A stretch of DNA of 64,000 nt, from NCBI GenBank assembly GCA_001899285.1, contig MKWA01000004.1:1-64000 (forward strand). The letters run 5' to 3'. Positions 22,218-53,322 of this stretch are shown one piece after another. Below the pieces are notes generated by a model that was given only the letters and a program-made list of their open reading frames with translations, was not told the DNA's origin and ran no database searches. This stretch comes from Rhizobiales bacterium 64-17. GTDB lineage: Bacteria; Pseudomonadota; Alphaproteobacteria; Rhizobiales; Xanthobacteraceae. A program made the translations under genes and the position numbers. Numbering within the stretch: the stretch's first letter is position 1; every line of letters starts with the position of its first letter.

Positions 22218-22513
22218 GGGACGGCGCCTATCGCGGCTCCGCCGTCGATCGTCGCGACGGATTCATTCATTTCTCGACGGCCGCGCAGGTGCGCGACACC
22301 GCTGCAAAGCATTTTGCCGGGTTGTCCGACCTTGTGTTGATCGGCATTGATGACACGCGCCTCGGTACTGAATTGCGCTGGGAGCCGTCACGCGGCGGCG
22401 CGCTGTTTCCGCATCTCTATGCGCCGCTGCCGGTCGAGGTGGCGACGAGCGTCACCCCGCTGCCGCTCGGGAATGACGGGCGTCACCGCTTTCCGGACTG
22501 GCTTGATCAGTAG
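22169..22513 (+). CDS. DUF952 domain-containing protein
   Basis: A 114-aa cytosolic protein. RIYKICTAAEWDAA, then DGFIHFSTAAQVRDTAAKHF and a terminal LFPHLYAPLPVEVA, are the DUF952 hallmarks. Function is unknown; the fold resembles ADP-ribosyltransferase-like proteins. The family methionine is the ATG at 22169, not the longer ORF start at 21974. It overlaps the DUF3551 gene by 49 bases. Confidence 0.82.
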   Translation: MRIYKICTAAEWDAAVRDGAYRGSAVDRRDGFIHFSTAAQVRDTAAKHFAGLSDLVLIGIDDTRLGTELRWEPSRGGALFPHLYAPLPVEVATSVTPLPLGNDGRHRFPDWLDQ

Positions 22514-23868
22514 CGGTCGATCTCGCGACGAACCTTGTCGAGCACCGCGTGCGGCGCACGCACGAATTCAGAACGACTGAGCGCCGCGCCGTCGCCTGGA
22601 CGGGTCGTCGCCACCATCCCGATCTTGGTGACGGTGAGGTTCTCGTGCACCGGATCGCAGCGGTCCGCCTTCACGCCGGGAATGACCATGAGGTCCTCAT
22701 CGCCGCGAAAGCGCGCGGCGAGCGACCATTCCACATCGCGCGGATTTTCCGGATCGACGTCATCCTCAACCACGGTGACAAGCTTCAGCAGATTGACCTC
22801 GCCCATCGCCAGCAGGATCGCGCGCTTGCCTTCGCCCAGCTTTGGCTGGTGCATGGAAATGACCGCATGCAGCCGGCCCATGCCACCCTCGGTGATGACG
22901 ACGCGGCGCACCGCCGGGATCATTCGCTGCAACGTTTTCTGCAATGTCGCGCCGATGGCGATGGCGCCGAGCAGGCAATGCTCGCTGGCATAGCCCGGCA
23001 GGATCGTCTGGAAGATCGCATCCTTGCGGTGCGTGACGCAGCGAATCTCGCCGCCAATGCCGGGGCCGTAATTCACATAGAAGCCGTGAAATTCCGAGAC
23101 CGGGCCTTCGTCGATCAGCGCATCGGGATCGAGCGTGCCTTCCAGCACGATCTCGGCATCGGCCGGCACATCGAGATCGACGGTCTTGCAGCGCGCAAGC
23201 CGCAACGGCGCGCCGAGCAGCCCGCCGATATTGTCGTATTCGTCGTCGCCAAGCCCGAGATAAAGCTGCGAGCCGAGCAGCACCGCCGTGTGATTGCCGA
23301 TCGCTACCGCGATCTCCAGCGTGCGGCCGAGCGCCTTCGCTTTCTCCGCCAGCAGATTGAGATGATGATTCTTGGCGATGCCGGCCATGATCCGCCCATC
23401 GCCTTCCAGCCGCAGCCGGGCAATGGAGATGTTGCGCCGGCCCGTCTCCGGGTCTTTCGCAACGATCACACCGGCGGTGATATAGGGCGCGGTTTCACGC
23501 TCGAACCAGGTCGGCACCGGCAGCAGCCGCGCCAGATCGATGGCACGATCATGCACCACCTCCTGCACCGGCGCGTCGCCCACCAGCACCGGCTTCACCG
23601 GCGCCGTGAGCGCTTTCTGCAACAACGCATCGAGCCCATCACGGGGGACATCCAGCGCCTCGGCAAAGCGGGCGCGGGTCGAAAGGACATTGCCAACCAC
23701 CGGCATCGTTGCGCCGGTGACGTTCTCGAACAGCAGCGCCGGGCCGCGATCGCGCAACGCCAGCACCGCGCCGAGTTCGAAGCGCGGATCGACCGGCCGC
23801 GTGACGCGATGCAGCGCACCGTTGCGGTCGAGACTGGCGAGAAAGCCGCGCATGCTCTGGTCGGTCAT
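22507..23868 (-). CDS. UbiD-family prenylated-FMN-dependent decarboxylase
   Basis: UbiD enzymes add or remove CO2 on alpha,beta-unsaturated or aromatic acids using prenylated FMN supplied by UbiX (not seen here). This 453-aa protein shows the cofactor/metal region (NISIARLRLEGDGRIMAGI...HHLNLL), the conserved EFHGFYVNYGPGIGGE segment and the C-terminal block around HENLTVTKIGMVA. The start at 23868 (MTDQSMRGFLASLD) fits the family. It is the last gene of the operon that begins with livK, 16 nt after the urocanase-like gene. Its substrate may therefore be an unsaturated acid such as a urocanate analogue rather than a ubiquinone precursor. Confidence 0.85.
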   Translation of the reverse strand: MTDQSMRGFLASLDRNGALHRVTRPVDPRFELGAVLALRDRGPALLFENVTGATMPVVGNVLSTRARFAEALDVPRDGLDALLQKALTAPVKPVLVGDAPVQEVVHDRAIDLARLLPVPTWFERETAPYITAGVIVAKDPETGRRNISIARLRLEGDGRIMAGIAKNHHLNLLAEKAKALGRTLEIAVAIGNHTAVLLGSQLYLGLGDDEYDNIGGLLGAPLRLARCKTVDLDVPADAEIVLEGTLDPDALIDEGPVSEFHGFYVNYGPGIGGEIRCVTHRKDAIFQTILPGYASEHCLLGAIAIGATLQKTLQRMIPAVRRVVITEGGMGRLHAVISMHQPKLGEGKRAILLAMGEVNLLKLVTVVEDDVDPENPRDVEWSLAARFRGDEDLMVIPGVKADRCDPVHENLTVTKIGMVATTRPGDGAALSRSEFVRAPHAVLDKVRREIDRY

Positions 23869-23884
23869 CGGCGATCCCGTCCCC

Positions 23885-25531
23885 TTACGACGGCAAGCGG
23901 AAGTGATTGATCTTCTTTTGCCGCGCTTCGTCCAGCGCGTCCTCGTATCCGGCATCGGCATAGCGCATCACGCCGGTCGAGGTGTCGTTGGTGAGCGACA
24001 GCGACAACCGCTCGTCGGCGGCGTCCGAACCATCCGCCACCAGCGTGACGCCGGCGCTGGTCATATAGCCGGAATAGCCGCCGCCGCCGGAATGGATCGC
24101 CACCAGATCGGCCTGCGAGGCGCAATGCACCATGGCATTGAGCAGCGGCCAGTCGGCGATGGCGTCGGAGCCGTCGCGCATGTTTTCCGTCATGATGTTG
24201 GGGTGCGCCATCGCCCCCGCGTCGAGATGATCGCGGGTGAACGCAATCGGGCCGGTCAATTTTCCGGCGCGTACCATATCGTTGACCGCGAGCGCCAGAT
24301 CGGTGCGCTCGCCATGGCCGAGCCAGGCGATGCGCGCCGGCAACCCCTCGAACGGCACATGCTGGCGCGCCAGCCTGATCCAGTTGGAGACGATCTGGTT
24401 GTGGCCGAATTTCTCCAGCACGATGTCGTCGATCTTGCGGATGTCCTCGGGATCGTTGGACAGCGCGATCCAGCGGAACGGGCCGATGGCGCGCGCGAAC
24501 AGCGGCCGCAGGAACGCTTCCGTGAAAATCGGAATATCGAAGGCGTCTGCGACGCCGCCGTTCTTCGCCTGGGTGCGGATCAGATTGCCGTTGTCGAACA
24601 CCACCGCGCCCTTTTTCTGGAACTCCAGCATGGCGGTGACGTGGCGGACGATCGAGCGGGTCGACTCGTCCATCAGCACTTTCGGATCACCCTTGCGCAT
24701 CTCGCGCACCTCGGCGGGCGAGCGGCCGGACGGGATATAGCCATAGACGAGATCGTGCGCCGAGGTCTGGTCAGTGACCACATCGGGCACGAGGCCGCGC
24801 CGCGCGATCTCCGGATAGATGTCGGCGGCATTGGCGCAGAGGCCGACCGACAGCGGCTGCTTGTCCGCCTGCGCCTTGCGGATCATCGCCAGCGCCTCAT
24901 CGAGCGACGACGCTTTCACATCGAGGAAGCCGATCGCCATCCGCTTGTCGATGCGCGCCTCATCGACATCGAGACAAAGGATGGCAGCCTTTGCCATCTT
25001 GCCGGCGAGCGGCTGCGCGCCGCCCATGCCGCCGAGCCCCGCCGTGAGCACGAAACGGCCGGCAAGATCGCCGCCGAAATGCCGCGCGGCGATCCGCATG
25101 AAGATTTCGTAGGTACCCTGAATGACGCCCTGCGAGCCGATATATTGCCAGTCGCCGGCGGTGAGCCCGCCCCAGCAGATCAGGTTCTTGTTCGCGAGGT
25201 CGTAGAAGTTCTCGGCTTTCGCCCACTGGCCGATCATGTTGCAGTTGGCCATGATGATGACCGGTGCTTTCGCGTGGGTGCGCAGCACGCCGATCGGCTT
25301 GCCCGACTGCACCAGCAGCGTTTCACCATCCTCGATGGTCTTCAGCGTCTCGACGATCTTGTCATGCGACGGCCAGTCGCGCGCCGCCTTGCCGAGCGCG
25401 GCATAAACGACGAGGTTGTCCGGGTCTTCGCCGACTGCGAGGACATTTTCCAGAAGACGCAGCAGTCCCTCCTGCCGCCAGCCGCGACACCGCAGCCGGC
25501 CACCGGAGGTGACGGGAAAATCGCGTTTCAT
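23885..25531 (-). CDS. Divergent urocanate hydratase family protein (candidate thiourocanate hydratase)
   Basis: This 548-aa protein aligns with HutU over its length: CRGWRQEGLLRLLENVLAVGE, APVIIMANCN, the NAD-binding GLGGMGGAQPLAGKMAK, TRDHLDAG, and NDTSTGVMRYADAGYE. HutU uses NAD+ as an electrophile to hydrate urocanate. Two normally conserved blocks differ: HHGGGVGMGYSQHSG reads IHSGGGGYSGYMTSAG, and SPNRETE reads HPNIMTE, losing the arginine I associate with carboxylate binding. No hutH, hutI or hutG lies nearby. The neighbours (S-methyl-thiohydantoin desulfurase-like, hydantoinase, carbamoylase) suggest a sulfur-containing urocanate analogue as substrate. Confidence 0.82.
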   Translation of the reverse strand: MKRDFPVTSGGRLRCRGWRQEGLLRLLENVLAVGEDPDNLVVYAALGKAARDWPSHDKIVETLKTIEDGETLLVQSGKPIGVLRTHAKAPVIIMANCNMIGQWAKAENFYDLANKNLICWGGLTAGDWQYIGSQGVIQGTYEIFMRIAARHFGGDLAGRFVLTAGLGGMGGAQPLAGKMAKAAILCLDVDEARIDKRMAIGFLDVKASSLDEALAMIRKAQADKQPLSVGLCANAADIYPEIARRGLVPDVVTDQTSAHDLVYGYIPSGRSPAEVREMRKGDPKVLMDESTRSIVRHVTAMLEFQKKGAVVFDNGNLIRTQAKNGGVADAFDIPIFTEAFLRPLFARAIGPFRWIALSNDPEDIRKIDDIVLEKFGHNQIVSNWIRLARQHVPFEGLPARIAWLGHGERTDLALAVNDMVRAGKLTGPIAFTRDHLDAGAMAHPNIMTENMRDGSDAIADWPLLNAMVHCASQADLVAIHSGGGGYSGYMTSAGVTLVADGSDAADERLSLSLTNDTSTGVMRYADAGYEDALDEARQKKINHFRLPS

Positions 25532-25541: not shown

Positions 25542-26630
25542 TCACCTCAGCGCGTAATCGGTCAGATTGATGCCGAGCGCCTTTTCCACGATCGGATAAA
25601 CCGACGGATCGGTGACGCTCGATGACAGCGGAATGTGGGCCTTGGCGATACGCAGCACCAGCACGTCATCGCCCTCGCGCAATTCGCCGACGCTCATCGG
25701 CACGCCATCGCGGTTCAGCGTCGTGATCACATCGGGGAAGCCGGACAGCCGCGCGCCCTGCGCGTCATCGACCGCCATATATTCGTTCATCACATGCAGC
25801 GTCACCGCCTTGGCGCCATCGCCGACACGGATGGTGCCGATGTCGAACGCCTCGTTGGTATAGGTCACGGCCTTCTTGGTGATCCTGCCCTGACCGATGA
25901 TCTCGCCCTTGGTCTCGCGGCAGATCGCGTCGATCACCGCCGCGCCGCCCTTCGGCTCGGCCTGCAAGATGGCTTCGCCGAGCGCCAGCGCGATGGAAAT
26001 GCCGCCAAGCGCGGCATGCTTCTTCACATAGGACGCGCGAACCGGATTGCGGCACGAGGCGATGAAGCCGCCCGACATGTCCGACGCCGTGCGCAGGATC
26101 GGCGATATCCTGCCGGTCGCGCCGCGCACGACGAGTTCGATATAGGCGTTCTTGCTGCGGTTGCCGCCGACCGCCGACTGGATCATCGGCTCCGGCGAGT
26201 TGGCGAGGCCGATCGAACCCATGTCACCTGTCGGATGCGCGCGGATATCGCCGACCGCATCGATCACCTTGGTGCCGAGGATTGCTGACGGCAGCCACGC
26301 ATTCATGGTGCTCGACTTGCCGTTCTGACCGATGATCAGCCCGTAGATCGGCGCCCCCAGTTCCTTTTGCACCAGGCGCACGGCGTTGACGTAATCGACG
26401 CCGAGCATCTGCCATTCGGTGGTGCTGGCCGGCGCACCGATTGCGGCGGCGGTCGCGATCCACGCATCGTCCGGCACGTCATCCATGGAGACGAGTTCGG
26501 GTTGACCGGCATTCACCGCCGCCGTTCCCAGCATGCGGCCATGGTCAGCCCATCCCCCACCGCCGGCCGCGAAGACCGAACCGCCCTTCACGGCACGTTC
26601 GACGTCGCGTGCGGTGAGAATCCGTCCCAT
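25542..26630 (-). CDS. DUF917 / S-methyl-thiohydantoin desulfurase-like protein
   Basis: A 362-aa protein of the DUF917 family, which Pfam names S-Me-THD. The N-terminal glycine-rich signature (VFAAGGGGWADHGR) and the NGKSS and HPTGDMGS segments are present. Related proteins are linked to desulfuration of thiohydantoins, including the thiohydantoin-propionate step in ergothioneine breakdown; this comes from recalled literature, not from the sequence. It is followed after 10 nt by the urocanase-like gene and preceded by the carbamoylase, so the predicted product would be a hydantoin for the next two enzymes. Confidence 0.78.
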   Translation of the reverse strand: MGRILTARDVERAVKGGSVFAAGGGGWADHGRMLGTAAVNAGQPELVSMDDVPDDAWIATAAAIGAPASTTEWQMLGVDYVNAVRLVQKELGAPIYGLIIGQNGKSSTMNAWLPSAILGTKVIDAVGDIRAHPTGDMGSIGLANSPEPMIQSAVGGNRSKNAYIELVVRGATGRISPILRTASDMSGGFIASCRNPVRASYVKKHAALGGISIALALGEAILQAEPKGGAAVIDAICRETKGEIIGQGRITKKAVTYTNEAFDIGTIRVGDGAKAVTLHVMNEYMAVDDAQGARLSGFPDVITTLNRDGVPMSVGELREGDDVLVLRIAKAHIPLSSSVTDPSVYPIVEKALGINLTDYALR

Positions 26631-26641: not shown

Positions 26642-27901
26642 TTAGCGATTGTGTCCGTCGAGCAGGCGGACAGCTTCATACAAAGTCGCGGCGCCGGCCG
26701 AGAGTTGCTCCGGCTCGGTCCATTCTTCCGGCGTGTGGCTCTTGCCGTCCTTGCACGGGATGAACAGCATTGCCGCCGGCGCGATGCGGGCGACGAACGC
26801 GGTGTCGTGTCCCGCGCCGGACGCGAGCGATGTCGTCGAATAGCCGAGCGTCGTCGCGCCACGGCCGAGCAGATCGCGCAGATGCGCGTCGCAGATCGTC
26901 GGCTTGGTGCTCGACAAAGTGGCGAAGCGCGGACGCTTCACATGCGCCGCTGTAGCGATACGGCTGCTTTCCCGATCGAGCGCAGCCGTAAATTCGACGG
27001 CGACCGCCGGGTCTTCGGCGCGGATATCGAGGATGAGCCGTGCCTCGCCCGGCACCACATTGGCGGCGTTCGGCTTGATGTCAACGACGCCGGTGGTGGC
27101 CACGAAATGCCCCTGCCCGCGTTCGGTGAATGCCCGCGCCTGTTCGGCGACGAACAGGATCAGTTGCGCGGCCGCGAGGCTCGCGTCCTGCCGGTCCTGC
27201 ATCTGCGTGGTGCCGGCGTGATCGGCCGCGCCCTTGAACACCACCTCAATGCGGGTGATGCCGACGATCGCCGTCACCAGACCGAGGTCGATCTTGTTGT
27301 TCTGCAGCACCCGGCCCTGCTCGATATGCAGTTCGAGGAAGCCGGCGATACCCGGATGGCGCGCGTCGTTGAGCCGGCCCGGATCGCCGCCGACACGACG
27401 GATCGCATCGTCGAGCCGCTCGCCCGCCGGATTGGTATAGGCCAGCATCTTATCGTCGAGCACGCCGGCCATGGCGCGGCTGCCGACGCAGGAAATGCCG
27501 TATTCGCTCGGCTCCTCGGCCAGGAAATCGACGATCTCGATCGGATGGCGCGGCACATAGCCAGCCTCGCGCATGGCGCGTACCACTTCGAGCGCGGTGA
27601 TGATGCCGGCCGGGCCATCGAACCGGCCGCCCGACGGCACCGTATCCGAATGCGAGCCGAGCATGATCGGCCGGGCGCCGGCCTCGCTCCCCTCCAGGCG
27701 ACCGATCATGTTCGCGGCGGTATCGAGCCGCACTTTCAAGCCCGCTTCCTCGAAGCGTTGGCGCAGCCAGGCGCGGCCATCGAGGAACAGCGGCGAGAAC
27801 GAGCGCCGGGTGTGGGGGTGCTCCGGGTCGGTGATGGCGGCGAGCGCCATCAGGTCGTCCCAGATCCGCTGCTGGTTGATCTTGAGAGGTGTCGTCGTCA
27901 T
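26642..27901 (-). CDS. M20-family amidase/carbamoylase (N-carbamoyl-L-amino acid hydrolase or allantoate amidohydrolase)
   Basis: This zinc amidohydrolase cleaves N-carbamoyl groups, releasing CO2, ammonia and an amino acid. Metal-site motifs are complete: GSHSDTVPSGGRFDGPAGI, EEPSEYG followed by GSRAM, LHIEQG, and SGAGHDTAF followed by CKDGKSHTPEEWT. Its length of 419 aa is typical. The start overlaps the hydantoinase stop as TGATG, so the pair is translationally coupled, giving ring opening followed by decarbamoylation. Within the operon N-carbamoylglutamate is a plausible substrate; allantoate is the main alternative. Confidence 0.88.
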   Translation of the reverse strand: MTTTPLKINQQRIWDDLMALAAITDPEHPHTRRSFSPLFLDGRAWLRQRFEEAGLKVRLDTAANMIGRLEGSEAGARPIMLGSHSDTVPSGGRFDGPAGIITALEVVRAMREAGYVPRHPIEIVDFLAEEPSEYGISCVGSRAMAGVLDDKMLAYTNPAGERLDDAIRRVGGDPGRLNDARHPGIAGFLELHIEQGRVLQNNKIDLGLVTAIVGITRIEVVFKGAADHAGTTQMQDRQDASLAAAQLILFVAEQARAFTERGQGHFVATTGVVDIKPNAANVVPGEARLILDIRAEDPAVAVEFTAALDRESSRIATAAHVKRPRFATLSSTKPTICDAHLRDLLGRGATTLGYSTTSLASGAGHDTAFVARIAPAAMLFIPCKDGKSHTPEEWTEPEQLSAGAATLYEAVRLLDGHNR

Positions 27902-29295: not shown

Positions 29296-30012
29296 TCACT
29301 CATGACCGGCGGAAACGAAGACATCGAACAGGTTTTCATCCTGCTTGGCCTGCTGCGACGTACCGGAGAACGCCAGCGAACCGGACGTCATCACGCAGAC
29401 ATGTTCGGCGAAATCGAGCGCGCGGGTGGTGTTCTGCTCCACCAGCAGGATGGTCACACCCTGCGCCCTGAGCGTCGCAAGCGCCGCGAAGCACTGATCG
29501 ACCATTTTCGGCATCAGACCGAGCGACAGTTCGTCGATCAGCAGCAGTTTCGGCTCCGCCATCAGCGCACGGCCCATGGCCAGCATCTGCTGTTCGCCAC
29601 CGGACAGCGAGCCGGAGATTTGCTTGCGGCGATCCGACAGACGCGGAAACAGGTCGTAGACACGCGCACGATTGGCGGCGTCGTTGCGCGTGGACAAGTG
29701 ATAACCGCCGACAGTCAGATTTTCCTCGACGGTCAGATCGGTGAACAACCGCCGCCCCTCCGGCACCAGCGCAATCCCGAGATCGACACGGCGCACCGGC
29801 GGCACATGGGTGATGTCCTCACCGTTGAACAGGATGCGACCACCCTGCACCGCGGTGTGGCCCATGATCGCCATGATGGTCGAGGTCTTGCCCGCGCCGT
29901 TAGGGCCGAGCAATGCCAGCGCCGACTTGTCCGGCAATTCAAAGCTGACGTCCGTGACGGCTCGCACCGGACCGTAGCCGCAGCTCATGTTCTCAAGCCG
30001 CAGCATGGTCAT
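29296..30012 (-). CDS. livF: Branched-chain-type ABC transporter ATPase LivF
   Basis: A 238-aa ATPase with Walker A GPNGAGKTS, signature SGSLSGGEQQMLAMGRAL, Walker B LLLIDELSLGL and H-loop LLVEQN. The combination VPEGRRLF and LVEQN is typical of LivF. It overlaps the end of livG by 20 bases (an ATG at 30006 is also possible). It supplies energy with LivG for the importer that begins this operon. Confidence 0.92.
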   Translation of the reverse strand: MTMLRLENMSCGYGPVRAVTDVSFELPDKSALALLGPNGAGKTSTIMAIMGHTAVQGGRILFNGEDITHVPPVRRVDLGIALVPEGRRLFTDLTVEENLTVGGYHLSTRNDAANRARVYDLFPRLSDRRKQISGSLSGGEQQMLAMGRALMAEPKLLLIDELSLGLMPKMVDQCFAALATLRAQGVTILLVEQNTTRALDFAEHVCVMTSGSLAFSGTSQQAKQDENLFDVFVSAGHE

Positions 30013-30757
30013 CCGCCTTCCCGATATAGGCTTCGCGCACCGCCTTGTCGGCCATCACCTCGGCGGGCGCGCCGTCGGCGATGATGCGGCCGCCGTCGAG
30101 CACCAGCAGCCGCTTGCACACACGCATCACCTCACGGAGATTGTGCTCGATCAGCACGGTGGTCAGACCTTCGGCATTGAGCGCCGCCAGCGTGTCGGCC
30201 TGCTGCTCTGCCTCGCGATGGTTCAGGCCGGCCAGCGGCTCATCGAGAATGATGACGGACGGATCGACCGCGAGGGCACGGGCGACCTCCAGCCGCTTGA
30301 GATGGCCGAGCGGCAAGGCGCTGACGGCCCTATCCTCCATTCCGCCGAGGCCGACCTTGGCAAGAATCGCCGCGGCGCGGCTGTTTTCCGCCGCGCGCCG
30401 CCAGTGGAAAATCGCGGTAAGAGGATTGGCGGTGATCTTGTGTCCGGCGGCGAGCGCGGTGTTTTCCAGCACGGTCATTGAGCGGAACGGCCGCACGATC
30501 TGATGGGTGATGGCGAGCCCCTTGGCGATCCGCGCCGCCGTCGGCAGGCGCGTCACGTTCTGACCATCGAGCATGACGCGGCCGGTATCGGGCGCGAGCA
30601 CACCGGCGATGATGCGCAGCAGTGTCGTCTTGCCGGCGCCGTTCGGCCCGATCAAGCCGACGATCTCGCCCTTGCCAACTGAGAAATTGACATCGGTCAG
30701 CGCCTGCACGCCACCGAAGCGGATCGACACGGATTCGACCTGGAGGACATTGGTCAT
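29993..30757 (-). CDS. livG: Branched-chain-type ABC transporter ATPase LivG
   Basis: A 254-aa ATPase with Walker A GPNGAGKTT, the LivG segment AKGLAITHQIVRPFRSMTVLEN, a modified signature (LPLGHLKRLEVARAL), Walker B VIILDEPLAGL and H-loop IEHNL. The C-terminal VREAYIGK is characteristic of LivG. It overlaps the livM stop (ATGA) and partners LivF. Confidence 0.92.
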   Translation of the reverse strand: MTNVLQVESVSIRFGGVQALTDVNFSVGKGEIVGLIGPNGAGKTTLLRIIAGVLAPDTGRVMLDGQNVTRLPTAARIAKGLAITHQIVRPFRSMTVLENTALAAGHKITANPLTAIFHWRRAAENSRAAAILAKVGLGGMEDRAVSALPLGHLKRLEVARALAVDPSVIILDEPLAGLNHREAEQQADTLAALNAEGLTTVLIEHNLREVMRVCKRLLVLDGGRIIADGAPAEVMADKAVREAYIGKADDHAAA

Positions 30758-31602
30758 GCGCGGCGCAGCCTCCGCGTCAGAGAGTTTACGATGCCGGCGA
30801 GACCGCCGGGCGCGAACCGCGTCACCAGCACCAGCAGGCCGCCGAAGATCAGCAGGCGATAGTCGTTGATGAAGCGGAACACTTCCGGCAGCAACGTGAG
30901 AATGATGGTGGCGGCGACCACGCCCCAGGTCGAGCCGGTGCCGCCGATCACCACCATGGCCATCAGCGTGACCGACAGAATGAACCCGAACGAATCCGGC
31001 ACGATGAACTGCGTGAAATAGGTGTAGAGCCCACCCGCCAGACCGGCGATGGCGGTGCCGAGCGCGAAGGCCAGCAGCTTGTAGCTGGACGCCGGGATCG
31101 CCACGGTGCGCGCCGCCTGCTCGTCGTCACCGACGGCGCGGAATGCAAAGCCGAGCCAGCTCCGGTTCAGATACAGGCTGAACGCGATGGTCGCCGCGGC
31201 GAACAGCAGGATCATCACCGCGTTGCCCTCGGCGCCAAGGCCGCTGCCGGGAATCTTGCTGATGCCCATCTCGGCGCCGAGCCAGTGCTGCTTGCGCACG
31301 AAGCCGACGAACAGGAAGCTGACGCCGATGGTCGTCACCGCGAGGAAATCCTCGCGCAGCCGCACCGAGGCGAAGCCGACGACAAATCCGAGAATTCCCG
31401 CGACGACTGCGCCGGCGATCAACGCCACCGGCACCGGATAGCCAGCGACCGCGCACAGCGCCGCCGCATAGGCGCCCGCACCATAGAATGCGCCATGGCC
31501 CAGACTGAACTGACCGCAGAAGCCCGTGATCATATTGAGGCTGACGGCCAGCATGATGTTGATGCCGACGATCGACAGCAGACTGTAGGTGTACAGGCTC
31601 AT
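30754..31602 (-). CDS. livM: Branched-chain-type ABC transporter permease LivM
   Basis: A 282-aa permease with about eight hydrophobic helices. Diagnostic blocks are LNMITGFCGQFSLGHGAFYGAGAYAAA, FRAVGDDEQAARTVAIPASSYKLLAFALGTAIAGLAGGLY and VVIGGTGSTWGVVAAT. The start overlaps the livH stop by four bases. It is a stand-alone LivM, in contrast to the fused version at 36986-39487. Confidence 0.92.
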   Translation of the reverse strand: MSLYTYSLLSIVGINIMLAVSLNMITGFCGQFSLGHGAFYGAGAYAAALCAVAGYPVPVALIAGAVVAGILGFVVGFASVRLREDFLAVTTIGVSFLFVGFVRKQHWLGAEMGISKIPGSGLGAEGNAVMILLFAAATIAFSLYLNRSWLGFAFRAVGDDEQAARTVAIPASSYKLLAFALGTAIAGLAGGLYTYFTQFIVPDSFGFILSVTLMAMVVIGGTGSTWGVVAATIILTLLPEVFRFINDYRLLIFGGLLVLVTRFAPGGLAGIVNSLTRRLRRA

Positions 31603-32480
31603 GCGCGGGCACCGGTCAGTCCCTGCGGCCGAACCATCAGGACGATAATGAGGAACAGGAAGGCGAGCGCATCGCGGTCGAGATAGGAGCCGACCAAAAT
31701 AGTGCCGAACGATTCGACAAGACCGAGCGCGAGGCTGGCGATCAGCGTACCGCGCATCGATCCGAGTCCGCCGAGAACGATGATCGCCAGCGCCTTGTAG
31801 CTGACGACAAAGCCCATGCTCGGCTCGACGAAATTGTTGAGCAGCGCGATCAGAGCGCCGGCAAGCGCCGCCAGCGCCGAGCCGATCATGAAATTGAGAT
31901 AGCGGACCTTGATGGCATCGACGCCGAAACTGGTGGCGATGGTCGGGTTCGAGACGGTCGCGCGCCAGGCGACGCCGACACGAGTGCGGGTAGTGAACAG
32001 CGCGAGCGCCGTCAGACAGACCACCGACAAAACGATCATCGCGATCTGCACCGTGTTGATCGTGACGCCGAACAACTGATGGATCTCGGTCGGATAGGGA
32101 TTGCGCGTGAAAGTCAGCCCCTGTTCGCCGAACAGGATGCGAAAACCGTCTTCCATAAAGATCAGCAGACCCATGGACGCGATCATCGCAACGTATGGCG
32201 GGTGCTTCAGCAGCGGCTCGTACAGCAGACGATAGATCGCCGGGCCGAGCAGCGCGGAGGCGACAATCGCCACGACAATGCCGAGCGCGATGCTGCCGGT
32301 GGCATTGGCGACGATCACAGTGATGAACGCGCCGAACGCGTAAACCGCGGCGTGCGCGATATGCAGGATGCGCAACAGGCCATAGACCAGCGTCAGGCCG
32401 ATCGCCATCAGCGCATACATGGCCCCGAAGATCAGGCCGTTGAGAGTGAGATCGACGTAATACACGGGGTCCGGATCCAT
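31599..32480 (-). CDS. livH: Branched-chain-type ABC transporter permease LivH
   Basis: A permease of the LivH type: LTLNGLIFGAMYALMAIGLTLVYGLLRILHIAHA at the N-terminus and IVLGGLGSMRGTLIASLALGLVES near the C-terminus. The ORF opens with a GTG at 32525, just after the livK stop; the ATG at 32480 gives the usual length of 293 aa and is preferred, although its Shine-Dalgarno is weak. It partners LivM in the first transporter. Confidence 0.91.
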   Translation of the reverse strand: MDPDPVYYVDLTLNGLIFGAMYALMAIGLTLVYGLLRILHIAHAAVYAFGAFITVIVANATGSIALGIVVAIVASALLGPAIYRLLYEPLLKHPPYVAMIASMGLLIFMEDGFRILFGEQGLTFTRNPYPTEIHQLFGVTINTVQIAMIVLSVVCLTALALFTTRTRVGVAWRATVSNPTIATSFGVDAIKVRYLNFMIGSALAALAGALIALLNNFVEPSMGFVVSYKALAIIVLGGLGSMRGTLIASLALGLVESFGTILVGSYLDRDALAFLFLIIVLMVRPQGLTGARA

Positions 32481-32528
32481 AAGGATGCGGGACGCCGGAG
32501 AGCGCCCCGCATCAAAAGTGTCCACGCC

Positions 32529-33710
32529 TTATTCGGTCGGCGGGGCGAGCAGCTTCAGATCGTCGATCCAGGCGTAGTGGACAAACTTGCCGCCCTTCAC
32601 CACGTTGACGTTCATCGGCATGTTGATCTCGCGCAGCGCGTTGAAGCTGACGAGCTTGCCGGCGAGATGGTCGAAATCCTTGGTGTTGGCGAGCGCGTCG
32701 CGCACCTTCGCCTGATCGAGCGAGCCGGCGCGCTTGATCGCATCCGCCATCAGCACGATCGCCGAATAGACGGTCGCGCCGACGTTTTCACCCGGATAGC
32801 CGGCACGCTTCTGGAATTCGGCGAGATAGGACTTGAGCTGCGCGCTGTCGCGGTCGCGGTTGAGGCCGCCGACGATGTACACGCCCTCCACCGCCTGCCC
32901 GGCGATCTCGATCAGCTTCTGCGCGTCAAACGCCTGCGAGCCAATGATCGGCACCGTGATGCCGGCGGCACGCAACTGTGTCACCAGCGGACCGGCGGTG
33001 AAGAAATAGCCGGTGACATAGATCGCCTGCGGATTGTCGCGCTTCACGCTGGCGACGATCGAGCCGAACTGCCGATCGCGCAGCGGATAGGAGTATTCGC
33101 CGAGGATCTTGATGCCGAACTGACCGGCGGCGCTCTTGAAGCCTTCGAGCGTGGCTTGGCCGTAATCGTTGTCCATCGAGATGACGGAGATCTGCTTGTG
33201 GCCGAGCACATCGCCGACAAACTTGGCGCCGGCGCGTCCTTGCGGCTGACCGAGGTGAACGGTGCGGAACACATAGTTGCCGGACCGGGTGATGTCCGGG
33301 TGCACGCCGTAAGCCGAGATGAACGGCACGCCGGCTTTCTGGAACACCGGCGCAGCAGCGCGGCCGGACGCCGAATAGCTGCCGGACACCGCGAACTTCA
33401 CGCCATCTTGGCCGACCAGCTTGTTGGCGGTGAACACCGCTTCGTCGGTCTTGGCCTGATCGTCATAGATGACCAGTTCGATTTTCTGCCCGAGCACGCC
33501 GCCCTTGGCATTGATGTCCTGAACGGCAAGTTCGGCAGCCACCTTGGCGGAGACGCCATCGGTCGCGGCCGGGCCGGTGAGCGGCGCCTGGAAGCCGATC
33601 TTGATCTGGGCGGTCGCGGTTGTCGCCACCGCAACGCTGAACGCCAGCGCGGCACCGATGCGCACCGCGGCGCGGGCGACAGGGAAACCAAGCGGGAAAT
33701 GATGAAGCAT
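32529..33710 (-). CDS. livK: Branched-chain-type ABC transporter substrate-binding protein LivK
   Basis: The 393-aa periplasmic receptor has a signal peptide ending TTATAQ and then IKIGFQAPLTGPAATDG, the usual start of type I binding proteins (Peripla_BP_6). The ATG at 33710 has GAGG eight bases upstream, so it is chosen over the long ORF start at 33830. It is the first gene of the ten-gene operon (livKHMGF, hydantoinase, carbamoylase, DUF917, urocanase-like, ubiD). Its ligand is therefore probably the pathway substrate rather than leucine. Confidence 0.9.
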   Translation of the reverse strand: MLHHFPLGFPVARAAVRIGAALAFSVAVATTATAQIKIGFQAPLTGPAATDGVSAKVAAELAVQDINAKGGVLGQKIELVIYDDQAKTDEAVFTANKLVGQDGVKFAVSGSYSASGRAAAPVFQKAGVPFISAYGVHPDITRSGNYVFRTVHLGQPQGRAGAKFVGDVLGHKQISVISMDNDYGQATLEGFKSAAGQFGIKILGEYSYPLRDRQFGSIVASVKRDNPQAIYVTGYFFTAGPLVTQLRAAGITVPIIGSQAFDAQKLIEIAGQAVEGVYIVGGLNRDRDSAQLKSYLAEFQKRAGYPGENVGATVYSAIVLMADAIKRAGSLDQAKVRDALANTKDFDHLAGKLVSFNALREINMPMNVNVVKGGKFVHYAWIDDLKLLAPPTE

Positions 33711-33838
33711 CGTCTTGTCCTCAATCTCCGTCGGGCGCCGGACGTGGCCCCGCATAGGGTTTATCGCACCGCCTCCCGGCTCTACGGCAGGGCGCATCAA
33801 AGCTTGGAACGCGCCATCGGCGCCGACCAATACCGATT

Positions 33839-33863
33839 GATAATGTCAGCCATCAGATTTATC
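33839..33863. promoter_or_regulatory. Candidate LysR-type operator between livK and the double LysR gene
   Basis: GATAA and TTATC form an inverted pair spaced by 15 bases in an AT-rich stretch 30 bases upstream of the regulator start. The T/A dyad resembles LTTR sites. No second half-site was confirmed. Confidence 0.35.
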
Positions 33864-33892
33864 TATACCCCTGTCGCAGAAGGGTCGAGGGG

Positions 33893-35716
33893 ATGGATTT
33901 CCGGCAGTTGCAATATTTTGCAGCGGTGGTGGAGCAGCGCAGCCTGAGCGCCGCAGCGCGGCTGTGCGGCGTGACGCAACCGACCCTGAGCGCGCAGATG
34001 CAGCGGCTCGAAGCCGAACTCAACGATGTCCTGTTCACCCGCACGCCGGTCGGCCTGCAGCCAACCAAATCCGCGCAACATCTGCTTCGTCGCGTGATGC
34101 CGCTGCTCGATGATGTCGTGCACGGCGCCCGCTATCTCCGCTCCGGCAGTTCCGAGCCGGTGCAGACGCTGGAGATCGCCCTCGACTATTCGCCGGCCTG
34201 TCTGCTGATGCAGCTCGCACGGCAGGCGGCGCATGAAGTGGAAAACCACGCGCCGCATATCAAGGTGATGCTGTTCAACGTCGAGAGCAGCACGCGCACC
34301 TTGCCGGCGATCCGGCTGCGTCATGAGGCCGCGGCGCCATCAGCCCGCGCCCCGACGGATCAGTGGCTGCTGGTCGCGCTCAAAGGACAGATGGACGACA
34401 GCGATGACGGACAACGACAAAGGCTGCTGGAAGGCGTCATCGACGTGCCGGCGCTTCCGGCCCCGATCCGCACCTTGCTGCAAGGCGCCGGCACCGCCGC
34501 GACGTTGCGTTTCCACGACGACGAGCCCGCCGATCTGATCGCCGCGCTGCTGACGCAAAACCGCGGGCCGCTCCTGGTCCCGCGGCTGGCGGTAAACCCG
34601 GAAATCCTGCGGCATCCCCGGCTGGCGGTGCGCGTCGTCACCAGACAGCTCCCTGCCCTCGCTATTGCAGTCGATTGCACCGATCCCGACGATTCAGTGC
34701 CAAGCGCCTTCCGCCGCGCGATCCAGGGGGCCATCCGGGCGCGTTTGCGCGAGCCGGTCGCAACGGCACCATCGCTACCCGGTGCTCTGGACGATGCTCT
34801 GCCGGAAACCCGTCAGCTCCGCTACTTCCTGCGCGTCTGCGACGAAGGCAGCATCACGCGCGCCGCGGCGAAGCTCAATGTGGTTCAGCCTGCCGTCAGC
34901 ATGCAGATCCGCGCGCTGGAACAAAACCTCGGGAGCAAGCTGTTCGACCGCTCGGCGCAAGGCATCCATCTCACGCCGTTTGGCCGCAGAGTTCGCGCCA
35001 TCTATTCGCCGATCCTCGATACGCTGCAAACCGTCGCGCGGCCGTCCCCTGCAATCCGCAGGCGGACGGCGACGGTCATGCGCGTCGGCGTGCTGCCCGG
35101 TCTCGACGAGGACAGCCTGCTGGTGCAGGCGACGACCGCAACGATCCTCGAATGGCGCAAGTCCTTCGCCAATGTGGAGTTGAAGATCGTCGAGTCGCAC
35201 AGCGGCGTCCTGCTCGACTGGCTTGCGGACAATGTGATCGACATCGCCATCGTCGAGGACATGCATGCCCACCGCTCGTTGCAGGAGACGGTGCTCGGCT
35301 CGGAACCGCTGTCGATCCTGACCGCGAGCCATTCCGCGATCTGCCCGCGCGGCCCCATCAAGATGACGGACATCGCCAAGCTCGATCTCGTCCTGCCGAC
35401 GGTGCGTCACGGATTGCGGGCATTGCTGGAGCGCAAATTCGCCGATGCCGGCCTGCCGCTCGTCCCCAAGCTCGAACTCGACTCGATGGCTGCCGCCGTT
35501 CGCCTGGTGAAATCGGGAGGATGGGCGACGGTGATGCCGTCGTCGGCGGTGCAGCGCAGCCTCGACAATCAGATTCTGGAAGCCCATCCGATCGTCAAAC
35601 CGGCGATCATGCGCGAACTGCGCGCCGTCCAGTTGCCGCGCCACCGCAAGCGGCCATGGGAAGGCGAGTTCATCGCTTTCCTGCACGCACGGTTGTCGTC
35701 GCAGCTCTCCGCCTGA
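33893..35716 (+). CDS. Tandem double LysR-type transcriptional regulator (607 aa)
   Basis: The protein contains two complete LysR DNA-binding domains: residues 1-60 (DFRQLQYFAAVVEQRSLSAA, CGVTQPTLSAQMQRLE) and 307-365 (LRYFLRVCDEGSITRAA, VVQPAVSMQIRALE). The first is followed by a poorly conserved region (about 90-290) where a degenerate effector domain would be. The second is followed by a recognisable LTTR effector domain (from about 390). Typical LysR proteins are near 300 aa, so this is twice the size. A GAGGGG motif precedes the ATG. Divergent from livK, it is the likely regulator of that operon. Confidence 0.88.
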   Translation: MDFRQLQYFAAVVEQRSLSAAARLCGVTQPTLSAQMQRLEAELNDVLFTRTPVGLQPTKSAQHLLRRVMPLLDDVVHGARYLRSGSSEPVQTLEIALDYSPACLLMQLARQAAHEVENHAPHIKVMLFNVESSTRTLPAIRLRHEAAAPSARAPTDQWLLVALKGQMDDSDDGQRQRLLEGVIDVPALPAPIRTLLQGAGTAATLRFHDDEPADLIAALLTQNRGPLLVPRLAVNPEILRHPRLAVRVVTRQLPALAIAVDCTDPDDSVPSAFRRAIQGAIRARLREPVATAPSLPGALDDALPETRQLRYFLRVCDEGSITRAAAKLNVVQPAVSMQIRALEQNLGSKLFDRSAQGIHLTPFGRRVRAIYSPILDTLQTVARPSPAIRRRTATVMRVGVLPGLDEDSLLVQATTATILEWRKSFANVELKIVESHSGVLLDWLADNVIDIAIVEDMHAHRSLQETVLGSEPLSILTASHSAICPRGPIKMTDIAKLDLVLPTVRHGLRALLERKFADAGLPLVPKLELDSMAAAVRLVKSGGWATVMPSSAVQRSLDNQILEAHPIVKPAIMRELRAVQLPRHRKRPWEGEFIAFLHARLSSQLSA

Positions 35717-36985: not shown

Positions 36986-39487
36986 CTATGCGCTCGGAGT
37001 TTCGCTGCCGAGATAGGCCGCTTCGAGCGACGGGTCTTTTGCGATCACCGCCGCGACGCCGCTCTTCACGATGGTGCCTGTCTCCAGCAGATAGGCCCTG
37101 TCGGCCAGCGCCAACGCCTGACCGGCCATCTGATCGACCACCATCAGCGTCATGCCCTCGGCGCGCAACGCCTCGAAGGATGCGAACAACTCGTCGACCA
37201 CCAAGGGAGCGAGTCCCAGGGACGGCTCGTCCAGCATCAGCACACGCGGCCCCGTCAGCAGACCGCGTGCGACGGCCAGCATCTGCTGTTCGCCGCCGGA
37301 CAACAGACCGGCACGCTGGGCGCTACGCTCCCGAAGCTTTGGGAAGCGCAGGAACATGGCTTCCACGTCCTTCTCGAGATCGGCGTCCTTGCGTGCATAG
37401 GCGCCGATTTCGAGATTCTGCCGCACCGTCAGCTCCGGAAACACCTGCCGGCCTTCCGGCACCAGCACCACGCCGGCGCGAGCGCGCTGATGCGCAGGAA
37501 TATTGTCGATACGGTTGCCGGAAAGCTTGATCTCGCCCTTCACCCGCGGCGGCGTCAGGCCGGCGATGGAGCGCATCAGGGTCGTCTTGCCGGCACCATT
37601 GGCACCGAGCACAGCAACCGCCTCCCCGTCCGCCACCACGACATTGATGTCCGCGAGCGACTGCGACAGCCCGTAGAACGCGCCGAGCCCCTTGATCTCG
37701 AGGATGGCATCCTGCTTGACCTCGCGCGCCACGCTGACCTTTTCGCCAACGGCAACGTCACCGAGATAAGCCTGGCGCACCAACGGATCGTTGCGGATGG
37801 CCGCGGGATCACCGACGGCAATGCGTTTGCCGCCGTCGAGCACCACGATGTGGTCGCTCAACGCCATGATCATCGGCATGTCGTGCTCGACGATGATGAC
37901 GGCGATGCCGAGTTCGGCGATCCGGCGCAACAACGCAGCGAGCCGCTGCTTGTCGCCTTTCGAGAGACCGGCGGCGGGCTCGTCGAGCAGCAAAACCTTG
38001 GGCCGCAATGCCAGCGAGCGGGCGATCTCGACCAGCCGTTTCTCGCCGTGCGGAAGTGAATCCGCCTGACGATCGAGACCGCCTTCCACGCCGGCGAACC
38101 GCAGCAATCCTCGCGCGAACTCCTCGCTGTCGGCATTCCGCAGCGGCGTGACAATTCCGCCGAGCTTGCCCGCTGTTTCCGCGAGCAGCACATTCTCGAT
38201 AACGCTCAACGACCCGAACAACTGGGTCGTCTGGAAGGTTCGCGACACACCGAGCCGCGCCAGCGTATGCGACGCCATGCCCGTGAGGTCGCGCGACCCG
38301 AGCTTCACCGTGCCGGTGCTCGGCTTGTAGAAGCCGCAGAGCAGGTTCAGCGCGCTGGTTTTGCCGGCGCCGTTCGGGCCGATCACGCTGGTGACGTAGC
38401 CCGGCTGGGCGGTGAACGTGACATGCTGGACGGCTTTCACGCCGCCAAAGGAAATAGAGAGATCGCTGACATCAAGCGCGTTGCTGTCGGCGATCCGCAA
38501 GCGCGGCTGTGGATCGGCATCCGCGCCGGCCACCACGGCCTGCTGCGACGACCGCGGCCAGACCTTCCTGATCAGGGTGCCGATCAGACCGGCCACGCCT
38601 TCCGGCGCGATCCGCAACACTGCGAACAGCAGCAGCCCGAACACCAGCAGACGATACTCCGCGAGGTCGGCAAGCAGCTCCGGCAGCAACACCACCAGCA
38701 AGGCACCGATGATCGGGCCGATGGCCGAACCGGCACCACCGATCATCACGGCGAACAGCAGCAGGATCGACTGAATGAACGGGAACGAGCTCGGACTGAT
38801 ATAGCCCTGCAACGGTGCGAACAGCGCACCAGCAATGGCCATCATCGCCGCCGAAACCATGAATGCAACGGTCCGGACGCTGACAAGGTCGATACCCACC
38901 GACCGGGTCGCGACCTCGGAATCACGCGCCGCGCGCATCGCATAACCCCACCCGCTGTTCTTCAGACGAACAAACAGCCAGGTGGAGAGAGCGACCAGCA
39001 CCACGCCGATCATGGCGAGGCTGCGCTCTGACAGGGCAACGCCGGCGAAGCTGGGCGGCGTCGAGATGATCAGGCCGTTGCCGCCACCGGTGAGATCCTT
39101 CCATTCGACCGCGACGTGCTCGACGATGAAGCCGAACGCGATGGTGACCATCGCGAGATAAGGCCCTCGGACGCGCAGCGCCGGCATCGCCAGCAACGCG
39201 CCGACGACGCTGACCAGAACAATTCCCGCGCCCGCGGCCGCCCAATACGGCCAGCCCGCCCGCTCCATGAGCAGCACGGTGGTATAAGCGCCGATCGCCA
39301 TGAAACCGACGTGGCCGAGCGAAATCTGGCCGGCGAGGCCGAGCAGGACATTGAGACCGATACAGGCGATGGACGTCAGCGCGACCGTCGCGACGAGAAA
39401 AACCGAATAGCTGTCCGCGACCGAGGCATAGGCCAGCACAACCGCCAGAGCGACGACGCCTGCAAGGAGAGTTGAGCGGGACATCAA
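36986..39487 (-). CDS. Fused branched-chain-type ABC transporter: LivM-LivG-LivF in one chain
   Basis: One 833-aa protein carries three parts. Residues 1-305 form a LivM permease (LNVLLGLAGQISLGHVGFMAIGAYT). About 335-575 form a LivG ATPase with Walker A GPNGAGKTS at 370, LPHGEKR and LLLDEP near 500, and QAYLG at its end. About 595-833 form a LivF ATPase with Walker A GANGAGKTT at 628, SGGEQQML and VLMLDEPSLGL. Permease-ATPase fusions occur in this family, but having both ATPases with the permease is unusual. Its start overlaps the livH stop. No binding-protein gene accompanies it. Confidence 0.92.
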   Translation of the reverse strand: MMSRSTLLAGVVALAVVLAYASVADSYSVFLVATVALTSIACIGLNVLLGLAGQISLGHVGFMAIGAYTTVLLMERAGWPYWAAAGAGIVLVSVVGALLAMPALRVRGPYLAMVTIAFGFIVEHVAVEWKDLTGGGNGLIISTPPSFAGVALSERSLAMIGVVLVALSTWLFVRLKNSGWGYAMRAARDSEVATRSVGIDLVSVRTVAFMVSAAMMAIAGALFAPLQGYISPSSFPFIQSILLLFAVMIGGAGSAIGPIIGALLVVLLPELLADLAEYRLLVFGLLLFAVLRIAPEGVAGLIGTLIRKVWPRSSQQAVVAGADADPQPRLRIADSNALDVSDLSISFGGVKAVQHVTFTAQPGYVTSVIGPNGAGKTSALNLLCGFYKPSTGTVKLGSRDLTGMASHTLARLGVSRTFQTTQLFGSLSVIENVLLAETAGKLGGIVTPLRNADSEEFARGLLRFAGVEGGLDRQADSLPHGEKRLVEIARSLALRPKVLLLDEPAAGLSKGDKQRLAALLRRIAELGIAVIIVEHDMPMIMALSDHIVVLDGGKRIAVGDPAAIRNDPLVRQAYLGDVAVGEKVSVAREVKQDAILEIKGLGAFYGLSQSLADINVVVADGEAVAVLGANGAGKTTLMRSIAGLTPPRVKGEIKLSGNRIDNIPAHQRARAGVVLVPEGRQVFPELTVRQNLEIGAYARKDADLEKDVEAMFLRFPKLRERSAQRAGLLSGGEQQMLAVARGLLTGPRVLMLDEPSLGLAPLVVDELFASFEALRAEGMTLMVVDQMAGQALALADRAYLLETGTIVKSGVAAVIAKDPSLEAAYLGSETPSA

Positions 39488-40656: not shown

Positions 40657-40662
40657 ATGACG

Positions 40663-41640
40663 ATGAGCGAGAAGACGAACGTGCGGACCACCGGTGAGAC
40701 AACCGCTCAAGGCAAGCGCGCGGACAGCACGGCAGCGAAGGACAGTCAACTCCTCCTGAAGCACCATGGGCGCTACCATTATTCCGCTATCACCCGTCGT
40801 CCGCACTTCGCGTGGCCGGGGAACAAGCAGCTTGCCGTTTATATCGGCCTCAACCTTGAGCACTTTGCCTTCGGCGAAGGCTTGGGCGCGGAATTGGCTC
40901 CCGGCGGGCCGCATCCGGACGTCCTGAATTTCTCCTGGCGCGATTACGGCAACCGCGTGGGCGTCTGGCGCCTGATCGATCTGTTCGACGAATTGTCACT
41001 GCCGGTTTCGGTGCTGGTGAACAGCAGCATCTATCATTACTGCCCCGAGGTGATGGACGCATTCCGCGAGCGCGGCTGTGAAATCGTCGGCCACGGCCGC
41101 ACCAATTCCGAGCGGCAGGGACAACTCTCGGAAGCGGAAGAACGCGACCTCATCAAGGAGTCGACCGACACCATCATTCAGGCCGAGGGGAAGCGGCCGA
41201 CCGGCTGGCTAGGCCCCTGGATTTCGCAATCCCCCCTCACCCCCGATCTGCTGGCCGAAGCCGGCTATGAGTATCTGCTCGACTGGTGCATGGACGATCA
41301 GCCGATCTGGTTCGCGACACGCAATGGCAAGCGCATTCTGTCCGTGCCTTATCCGCAGGAACTCAACGACATTCCCTCCATCGCCGGACGGAAGGATTCC
41401 GCCGATCAGTTCGCCGACATGATCATCGACAATTTCGAGGAGATGCTGCTGCAATCCAGAAAGCAGTCCCTCGTCATGGGGATTGCGCTGCACCCCTATC
41501 TGGTGGGGCAGCCTTATCGCATGCGCCACTTGCGGCGGGCGCTACAGGCCATCGTTGCACGCCGCGACGACATCTGGATCACCACCGCCGGCGAGATCGC
41601 CCGGCACGTCCGGACACTGCCGGAGGGCACGATCCCGTGA
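40663..41640 (+). CDS. PuuE-like allantoinase / polysaccharide deacetylase family protein
   Basis: The product has the NodB-type fold in its allantoinase branch. Visible blocks are FSWRDYGNRVGVWRLIDLFDE, PVSVLVNSSIYHYCPEV, GCEIVGHGRTNSE, RPTGWLGPWISQS and LLDWCMDDQP. PuuE enzymes open the allantoin ring without metal. The N-terminal 40 residues are unconserved. The ATG at 40663 lies nine bases after AAGGA and is preferred over 40657. Its position between a Liv importer and an oxamate carbamoyltransferase-like operon suggests ureide degradation, although a true deacetylase is possible. Confidence 0.8.
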   Translation: MSEKTNVRTTGETTAQGKRADSTAAKDSQLLLKHHGRYHYSAITRRPHFAWPGNKQLAVYIGLNLEHFAFGEGLGAELAPGGPHPDVLNFSWRDYGNRVGVWRLIDLFDELSLPVSVLVNSSIYHYCPEVMDAFRERGCEIVGHGRTNSERQGQLSEAEERDLIKESTDTIIQAEGKRPTGWLGPWISQSPLTPDLLAEAGYEYLLDWCMDDQPIWFATRNGKRILSVPYPQELNDIPSIAGRKDSADQFADMIIDNFEEMLLQSRKQSLVMGIALHPYLVGQPYRMRHLRRALQAIVARRDDIWITTAGEIARHVRTLPEGTIP

Positions 41641-41647
41641 TCTGAAG

Positions 41648-41670
41648 CCCGCGCCAGAATCTGGCGCGGG
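41648..41670. terminator. Hairpin between convergent PuuE-like and carbamate kinase genes
   Basis: Perfect 10-bp arms (cccgcgccag/ctggcgcggg) with a 3-nt loop lie eight bases after each stop codon. There is no T tract, so it may act as a Rho-assisted or stability hairpin rather than a classic terminator. Confidence 0.6.
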
Positions 41671-41677
41671 TAGCCTG

Positions 41678-42661
41678 TCATGATGATGCCACCGGCGCGG
41701 CGTCATGGACGATATGGGTGCCGGTTTCGCCGCGCAAAGCAGCCATTGCGCAATCGAGGTGGCTGATGATCGCGCGCTTTCCGCCCCCTTCCAGGAATCG
41801 GATCGCCGCATCGACCTTCGGGCCCATGCTGCCCGGCGGGAAATGTCCTTCGCGGTGATAAGCTTTGATCTCGTCGAGCGAGACCCGATCCAGTTCCTTC
41901 TTGTTCGGCTTTCCGAAGTTCACGGCGACGCGCGGCACCGCCGTCAAAATCAGCAACTCCTCGATACCGAGAACATTCGCCATATGCGCCGAGGTGAGAT
42001 CCTTGTCGATCACCGCCGGCACGCCGGTGCGGGTGCCTTTCGGGCCGCGGATCACCGGCACGCCACCGCCACCGCCGGCGATCACAATCGTCCCGCGCTT
42101 GAGCAGCGCATCGACCAGCGAGATGTCGCAGATATGCTTCGGCTTCGGCGACGGCACCACGTGGCGCCAGCCACGCCCGGAGTCTTCGCGCATCTTCCAG
42201 TTAAGTTCGGCACCGATCCGTTTCGCTTCTTCTTCGGAGAAGAACGGCCCGACGAATTTGGTCGGATTGGCGAAGGCCGGATCGTTGGGATCGACCTCCA
42301 CCTGCGTGAGCAGGCTCGCGACGTGGCGCGGATTGCCCCGCTCGCGCAGCGCGTTCTCCATCGCCTGCATGAGCAGATAAGCGATGCCCCCCTGGCTATG
42401 CGCCACGCAGATGTCCATCGACATCGGCGGGATGCGGTCCATGGTCAGCATCTGGCGCATCATGATCTTGCCGACCACCGGGCCGTTGCCGTGCGTGATC
42501 ACCAGATCGTTGTCGAGCTCGGCCAGCGGCAGCAGCGCCTCCGCTGTCTGCCGCGCGATCACCTTCTGCTCATCGGAGGTGCCGCTGATCTCTTCCGGAT
42601 GAACCGCGTTGCCGCCGATCGCGATCACCAGACGGCGCGGAACCTCCTCAAGCGTTCGCAT
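41678..42661 (-). CDS. arcC: Carbamate kinase
   Basis: This enzyme transfers the phosphate of carbamoyl phosphate to ADP, yielding ATP, ammonia and CO2. The 327-aa protein shows the amino-acid-kinase signature LVIAIGGNAV, ITHGNGPVVG, the carbamate-kinase HSQGGIAYLL region, IVIAGGGGGVPVI and a C-terminal GSMGPKVDAAIRF. Its start overlaps the end of the FdrA-like gene by 14 bases. In the oxamate carbamoyltransferase module it uses the carbamoyl phosphate made by the FdrA/DUF1116/DUF2877 proteins. E. coli calls this paralogue AllK. Confidence 0.92.
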   Translation of the reverse strand: MRTLEEVPRRLVIAIGGNAVHPEEISGTSDEQKVIARQTAEALLPLAELDNDLVITHGNGPVVGKIMMRQMLTMDRIPPMSMDICVAHSQGGIAYLLMQAMENALRERGNPRHVASLLTQVEVDPNDPAFANPTKFVGPFFSEEEAKRIGAELNWKMREDSGRGWRHVVPSPKPKHICDISLVDALLKRGTIVIAGGGGGVPVIRGPKGTRTGVPAVIDKDLTSAHMANVLGIEELLILTAVPRVAVNFGKPNKKELDRVSLDEIKAYHREGHFPPGSMGPKVDAAIRFLEGGGKRAIISHLDCAMAALRGETGTHIVHDAAPVASS

Positions 42662-49104: not shown

Positions 49105-49179
49105 TCTATCTTCCATCCTCCCAAGGGTAAAGCAATCACTCAGCTGTACGCTCCGATGTCCTAGAATATCGCCGCCAAT

Positions 49180-50229: not shown

Positions 50230-50316
50230 TATTGCGTATTTAGGGAGCATTTCGCGGATTTAGCCAGCTGGCGATAGTAGGCCCTGCAGAATATGTCGTG
50301 TCAAAAGGACACGACG

Positions 50317-50520
50317 ATGAACGAACCGCTGCTTGACCAGACCGAAGTCGCCAAGAAGCTCGGCATTTCGCCCCGAACCTTGGAGCGAATGCGGCTGATG
50401 GGCACCGGCCCGGCGTTCATCAAAATCGGCCGCTTAGTGCGTTATCGCGCCTGCGATCTAGAACGCTTCATCGCAGCTGCCACAGTCACCTCGACCTCAG
50501 AGCGCCCCGGTGCCCGCTGA
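50317..50520 (+). CDS. AlpA/excisionase-like helix-turn-helix protein
   Basis: A 67-aa protein with a MerR-like winged helix: LLDQTEVAKKLGISPRTLERMRLMGTGPAFIKIGRLVRYRACDLERFIA. Such proteins act as excisionases or activators in integrative elements. AAGGA lies ten bases before the ATG at 50317, which is preferred over the ORF start at 50293. The stop overlaps the beginning of the Rep-like gene. Confidence 0.85.
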   Translation: MNEPLLDQTEVAKKLGISPRTLERMRLMGTGPAFIKIGRLVRYRACDLERFIAAATVTSTSERPGAR

Positions 50521-51352: not shown

Positions 51353-51547
51353 TCAGCCTCGACCATCGTATCGACGAAACGCAAGAATCTCATTCGGAAA
51401 CAACAAAAAGGAGGCATCTGACGCATAATAGACCCGGTATTTCCCAAGTTCGTCAACTCAACTGCTTTCTAGACCCAGAGCTCGTCATCATTCGTCGACG
51501 CTAATTTCGCTGCGTACTGCGTACTGCGCACAACAATAGGACATAAG

Positions 51548-53290: not shown

Positions 53291-53322
53291 TTTCGGCTAC
53301 CCCTTGAGCAACCATAAGACAA

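Follow-up and report, generated by a model that had tools for sequence, protein, structure and literature searches.

A conserved two-headed LysR-type regulator next to a presumed ergothioneine/thiourocanate operon in Rhizobiales bacterium 64-17

Few families of bacterial regulators are as common as LysR, whose members are regarded as tetramers built from chains with one head each. The window analysed here, a stretch of 64,000 nucleotides from contig MKWA01000004.1 of Rhizobiales bacterium 64-17, encodes a single polypeptide with two LysR heads, and so raises the question of whether such a chain is a genuine fusion and, if so, which genes it serves and through which site. The regulator gene is composed of the following parts:

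33893..35716 (+): tandem (two-headed) LysR-type regulator, 607 aa, with tandem orthologues at loci L035, L060, L061 and L062
33899..34075 (+): first LysR helix-turn-helix (HTH1), residues 3-61, recognition helix QPTLSAQMQRLE; Pfam HTH_1, E=2.4e-20
34076..34792 (+): linker helix and degenerate first effector region, residues 62-300; no Pfam match, aligned by hhalign to LysR effectors
34811..34987 (+): second LysR helix-turn-helix (HTH2), residues 307-365, recognition helix QPAVSMQIRALE; Pfam HTH_1, E=8.8e-24
34988..35713 (+): second, intact effector domain, residues 366-607; Pfam LysR_substrate at 417-601

The gene forms one uninterrupted frame, whose ATG is preceded by the purine-rich AGAAGGGTCGAGGGG, and its GC content by codon position is coding-like in HTH1, the first effector, HTH2 and the second effector alike. 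The other two forward frames contain 15 and 4 stops, and none of 2000 shuffled sequences of the same composition stayed open. HTH_1 was matched in each half taken alone (72.7 and 83.7 bits, Pfam cut-off 26.6) and LysR_substrate in the second effector (97.8 bits, cut-off 28), in agreement with the initial annotation, which had described two full LysR helix-turn-helix domains in one chain, the first effector being degenerate and the second recognisable. The profile of the first effector region aligns weakly with the second effector and end-to-end with LysR effector domains (227 columns, E 6.9e-5, hhalign probability 63%); owing to the latter alignment "degenerate effector" is a fair description, and we read the region as a worn LysR effector domain and not as unrelated sequence. 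The usual LysR architecture of one HTH and one effector in about 300 aa does not describe this chain, which is considered a variant because its architecture differs, the domains themselves being those of LysR. The 36 HTH_1 matches in this genome fall in 35 genes, the tandem gene being the only one with two.

That a missed frameshift or stop conceals two separate genes, the outcome that would have undone the initial annotation, is ruled out by uninterrupted tandem orthologues. Full-length chains free of stops are present at L035 (604 aa), L060 of G607 (609 aa), L062 of G675 (609 aa) and L061 of G515 (613 aa), and are 51-59% identical to the window protein across these four other genomes. The first of them belongs to Rhizobiales bacterium 62-17 (58% identical; recovered by a scan of genome contigs), and the G607, G675 and G515 orthologues were found in a family sample. 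The two-headed LysR is confirmed as a true conserved fusion. No full-length match was obtained among 60 near relatives, the gene is absent from close relatives of the same genus, the sole match to the first effector in a class-wide sample was this genome itself, and a full-chain tblastn search of plasmids returned mostly pieces falling on single-head proteins. A further orthologue, L100 (402 aa, 61% identity), has lost the first effector and kept both heads as well as the upstream element described below.

The regulator is divergent from a close-packed run of genes on the opposite strand, which constitutes its presumed target operon:

32529..33710 (-): livK-like periplasmic binding protein, first gene of the operon; Pfam Peripla_BP_6
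29296..32525 (-): livH, livM, livG and livF transporter genes, in the same order in L035, L060, L061 and L100
27901..29286 (-): ErtD hydantoin-5-propionate amidohydrolase; NF058538, 778 bits, cut-off 600
26642..27901 (-): ErtE N-carbamyl-L-glutamate amidohydrolase; NF058540, 570 bits, cut-off 520
25542..26630 (-): thiohydantoin desulfurase; NF058529, 612 bits, cut-off 440
23885..25531 (-): thiourocanate hydratase; NF058530, 1024 bits, cut-off 930
22507..23961 (-): UbiD-family decarboxylase, last gene of the operon; Pfam UbiD, E=4.5e-53

All four ert proteins exceed the NCBIfam equivalog cut-offs, and because these four equivalogs lie in the livK operon its likely role, and hence the likely target of the regulator, is the catabolism of thiourocanate and of ergothioneine, a sulfur antioxidant. 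Under their NCBIfam names, ErtD, ErtE, the desulfurase and the hydratase would, in the usual order of the pathway, lead from thiourocanate to glutamate. The operon thus contains all four of these known ergothioneine utilisation enzymes, and differs from the known systems in lacking ergothionase and in carrying an extra UbiD decarboxylase and the livKHMGF importer. No ergothionase was found among the genes of the operon. Both Lyase_aromatic genes of the genome score as ordinary HutH, so thiourocanate may be the point at which this organism joins the pathway; in other ert loci an ergothionase candidate is a lyase that reaches about 200-230 bits with the HutH models and falls well short of the cut-offs of these models. 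The tandem LysR is divergent from livK in L035, L060, L061, L062 and L100; where the contig extends far enough, ert genes follow downstream, and the gene order of the operon is kept in L035, L060, L061 and L100. A UbiD decarboxylase also lies beside thiourocanate hydratase in L093, L100 and L111, its role in the pathway not being evident. Antisense to livH and livK runs a 622-aa open frame (32079-33947, +), most likely an artefact of high-GC coding sequence.

The initial annotation had placed an operator between the regulator and livK, in 33711-33892, and a putative one was found there:

33827..33869 (strand not assigned): conserved element, putative operator AATA-N9-AATG-N6-ATCAGA-N7-ATACC, with the same pattern in six orthologous loci
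33831..33843 (strand not assigned): T-N11-A box 1, not palindromic (p=0.31)
33853..33865 (strand not assigned): T-N11-A box 2, palindromic (p=0.015)

This 43-bp element, flanks included, occurs upstream of the regulator in 6 of 6 loci of group A (window-like proteins, see below), with two invariant T-N11-A boxes 22 bp apart, so that the T-N11-A box upstream of a divergent target, typical of LysR regulators, is found at all six. The pattern was derived from these six sequences, about five of them independent. Searched with one mismatch allowed, it gave five matches in 349 family genomes, all of them perfect and all at tandem LysR genes; as it was built from these same sites, the search adds its absence elsewhere and its presence in one copy per genome. 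The asymmetry that had been proposed for the operator holds for box 1, and fails for box 2 and for the element as a whole, which displays weak dyad symmetry (p about 0.02); a simple asymmetric operator is therefore not a clean description. A scheme in which each box combines one HTH1 and one HTH2 half-site lost its support once box 2 proved palindromic.

As an overall explanation we consider it probable that the two-headed LysR controls the divergent livK-ubiD operon, with both heads acting on the 43-bp element. The regulator would control the entire livKHMGF-ertD-ertE-desulfurase-thiourocanate hydratase-ubiD unit, and probably its own gene too, its heads occupying the element just upstream of its start codon. 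Two chains, each with two unlike heads, could together carry as many heads (four) as the four chains of an ordinary LysR tetramer. Box 2, nearer the regulator start, would correspond to the usual strong recognition box, which it resembles, and box 1, towards livK, to the weaker activation box; the oligomeric state and this assignment of heads to boxes are what we infer from the arrangement. The C-terminal effector may sense a breakdown intermediate of ergothioneine or thiourocanate, for which thiourocanate, its thiohydantoin product and hydantoin-5-propionate are candidates, and the ligand would switch the operon on; both ligand and direction of control are guesses from gene position.

The association between double heads and ert genes extends beyond this operon; neither it nor the role of the operon had been recognised in the initial annotation. 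Thiourocanate hydratase above cut-off was detected in 17 of 349 family genomes, and with four loci from a phylum-wide sample, nine from plasmids (70-75% identity) and L035 a total of 31 ert loci was examined. A double-HTH LysR adjoins 22 of these 31 (Rhizobiales, Rhodobacterales and Thalassospira), a figure that counts loci and not independent events because the loci are related to one another; for comparison, the share is 1 of 35 among the LysR genes of this genome (the window gene itself) and 0 of 30 in unrelated contig loci. At L062 the hydratase sits on another contig. A long type of about 600 aa (HTH-effector-HTH-effector) is encoded in the window and at L035, L060, L061, L062, L093, L102 and L105, and a short type of about 400 aa (HTH-HTH-effector) at L094-L098, L100, L109, L111 and L113-L118. 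Taken alone, the leading HTH of short-type proteins is weak, but a profile comparison pairs it with LysR heads (probability 98.5, E 2.3e-15); that of L118 is visible in the alignment only. The remaining nine loci (L099, L101, L103, L104, L106-L108, L110 and L112) have a single-HTH LysR, a GntR-type regulator or no adjacent regulator, so the pathway can do without the double head. Upstream of short-type genes a different motif, ATATCC(C/T), was found 28-77 bp from the gene in 8 of 10 cases, where 0.01-0.04 occurrences per 200 bp are expected. At L094 the motif ATATCCCA...GGACA, which includes the ATATCC(C/T) part, lies 77 bp before the start.

In a tree of HTH2 and its effector the double-headed proteins fall into three groups: A (window-like), B (L093-like) and C (short). 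The best tree does not unite them in one clade, and genome G607 has a second tandem LysR (L121) in another gene context, though about 5 kb from an ertD copy; both observations favour several independent origins of two-headed LysR proteins by convergence, not descent as one family, with ert operons as one frequent host. Such a history is possible but rather doubtful, given that the AU test does not reject a single clade (p=0.37), that the double-head label needs 2 changes on the tree against about 15 with shuffled labels, and that the first effectors of groups A and B align over their whole length. It concerns origin and is compatible with control of the livK-ubiD operon by the two-headed LysR. 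As read from its sequence, L100 illustrates a route by which the long type can give the short type, the first effector being lost and both heads kept. Recent internal duplication is ruled out: within the window protein HTH1 shares 36% identity with HTH2, which makes them no more alike than HTH1 and unrelated LysR heads. The second tandem LysR of G607 (L121 8895-10877, +; 660 aa) adjoins a peptide-type ABC transporter and a monooxygenase-like gene, the nearby extra ErtD copy scoring 789 bits (cut-off 600). The Paracoccus aminophilus plasmid pAMI4 encodes a long-type two-headed LysR (L114 4697-6394, +; 566 aa) in addition to the short-type one at its ert operon.

Purifying selection acts on all parts of the chain, the first effector being the least constrained and the second the most conserved. 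For the close pair L060 and L062, dN/dS is lowest in the second effector (0.02) and HTH1 (0.04), higher in HTH2 (0.11) and highest in the first effector (0.18); HTH1 stays within 0.04-0.28, and the first effector reaches up to 0.63. It is unlikely that the N-terminal half is a decaying leftover of the fusion and that the C-terminal half carries out an ordinary LysR function: the first effector indeed has no Pfam match, evolves fastest and is lost in L100, but HTH1 is constrained with its recognition helix kept, L100 retains HTH1 despite the loss of the effector, and chain length is steady at 604-613 aa even at 23-26% identity (L093, L102 and L105). AlphaFold, run on the full chain and on the N-terminal half, predicted both heads well (mean pLDDT per block 83-97) and the second effector at about 88, with the first effector below 50 and resolved in neither run. 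A Foldseek search with the N-terminal half matched full-length CbnR and BenM, a result biased by an input alignment made of LysR proteins. Of the proposed covalent dimer with two different DNA-reading heads, the conserved fusion and the two unlike heads are upheld; a dimer arrangement is conjectural, the full-chain model having no confident overall arrangement (pTM 0.41) and no defined placing of one head against the other.

A role for the regulator in general branched-chain amino acid import, to which the ert genes would be incidental neighbours, is very improbable. The genes beside it are indeed livKHMGF-like, but they are packed closely with the ert genes into a single run on one strand and remain together with these and the tandem LysR in L035, L060, L061 and L100; elsewhere double-headed LysR genes lie next to ert genes accompanied by transporters of other kinds (TRAP, other ABC).

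With CbnR, BenM, CysB and their relatives the two-headed LysR, which in our preferred reading controls the livK-ubiD operon, shares HTH_1, LysR_substrate, a divergent target and T-N11-A boxes, and it differs from them in having two heads and two effector regions (or one effector) per chain, the first effector being degenerate. The single-head NCBIfam models for CynR, NAC, GltC and PcaQ were among the best curated matches, in two stretches each, all far below cut-off (CynR 156 of 277 bits) and none defined by two heads. Domain databases may list two-headed LysR architectures. A literature search, incomplete in that most subscription journals lay outside it, returned no description of a two-headed LysR or of a regulator of the ert pathway; the protein is a candidate for both roles, regulator and sensor, in ergothioneine breakdown. 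The recurrence of two-headed versions beside ergothioneine breakdown genes points to a new, testable kind of regulator for this pathway. A broader proposal, to which we would give a little short of an even chance, is that they constitute a family dedicated to ergothioneine/thiourocanate catabolism across Alphaproteobacteria, whose unlike heads would read a composite two-box operator, whose dimer would do the work of a tetramer, and whose first effector would be dispensable, as in L100 and the short type. With a conserved double-headed form and its natural effector-loss versions, it becomes possible to study how many chains a LysR switch requires, and which of its heads.

Other features of the window lie beyond the regulator. 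An 833-aa triple fusion (36986-39487, -) combines in a single chain a LivM-type permease with two LivG/LivF-type ATPases. Next door, 40657-45427 forms a second cluster, of carbamoyl/ureide type, with genes for a PuuE-like allantoinase, a carbamate kinase and an FdrA-like CoA-ligase and a DUF1116-like gene, the last assigned by eye. From an integrase-like gene onwards (47881-64000) the GC content falls from about 0.65 to 0.54-0.58, and this region, which includes RND-efflux-like genes (by eye), is likely a genomic island.
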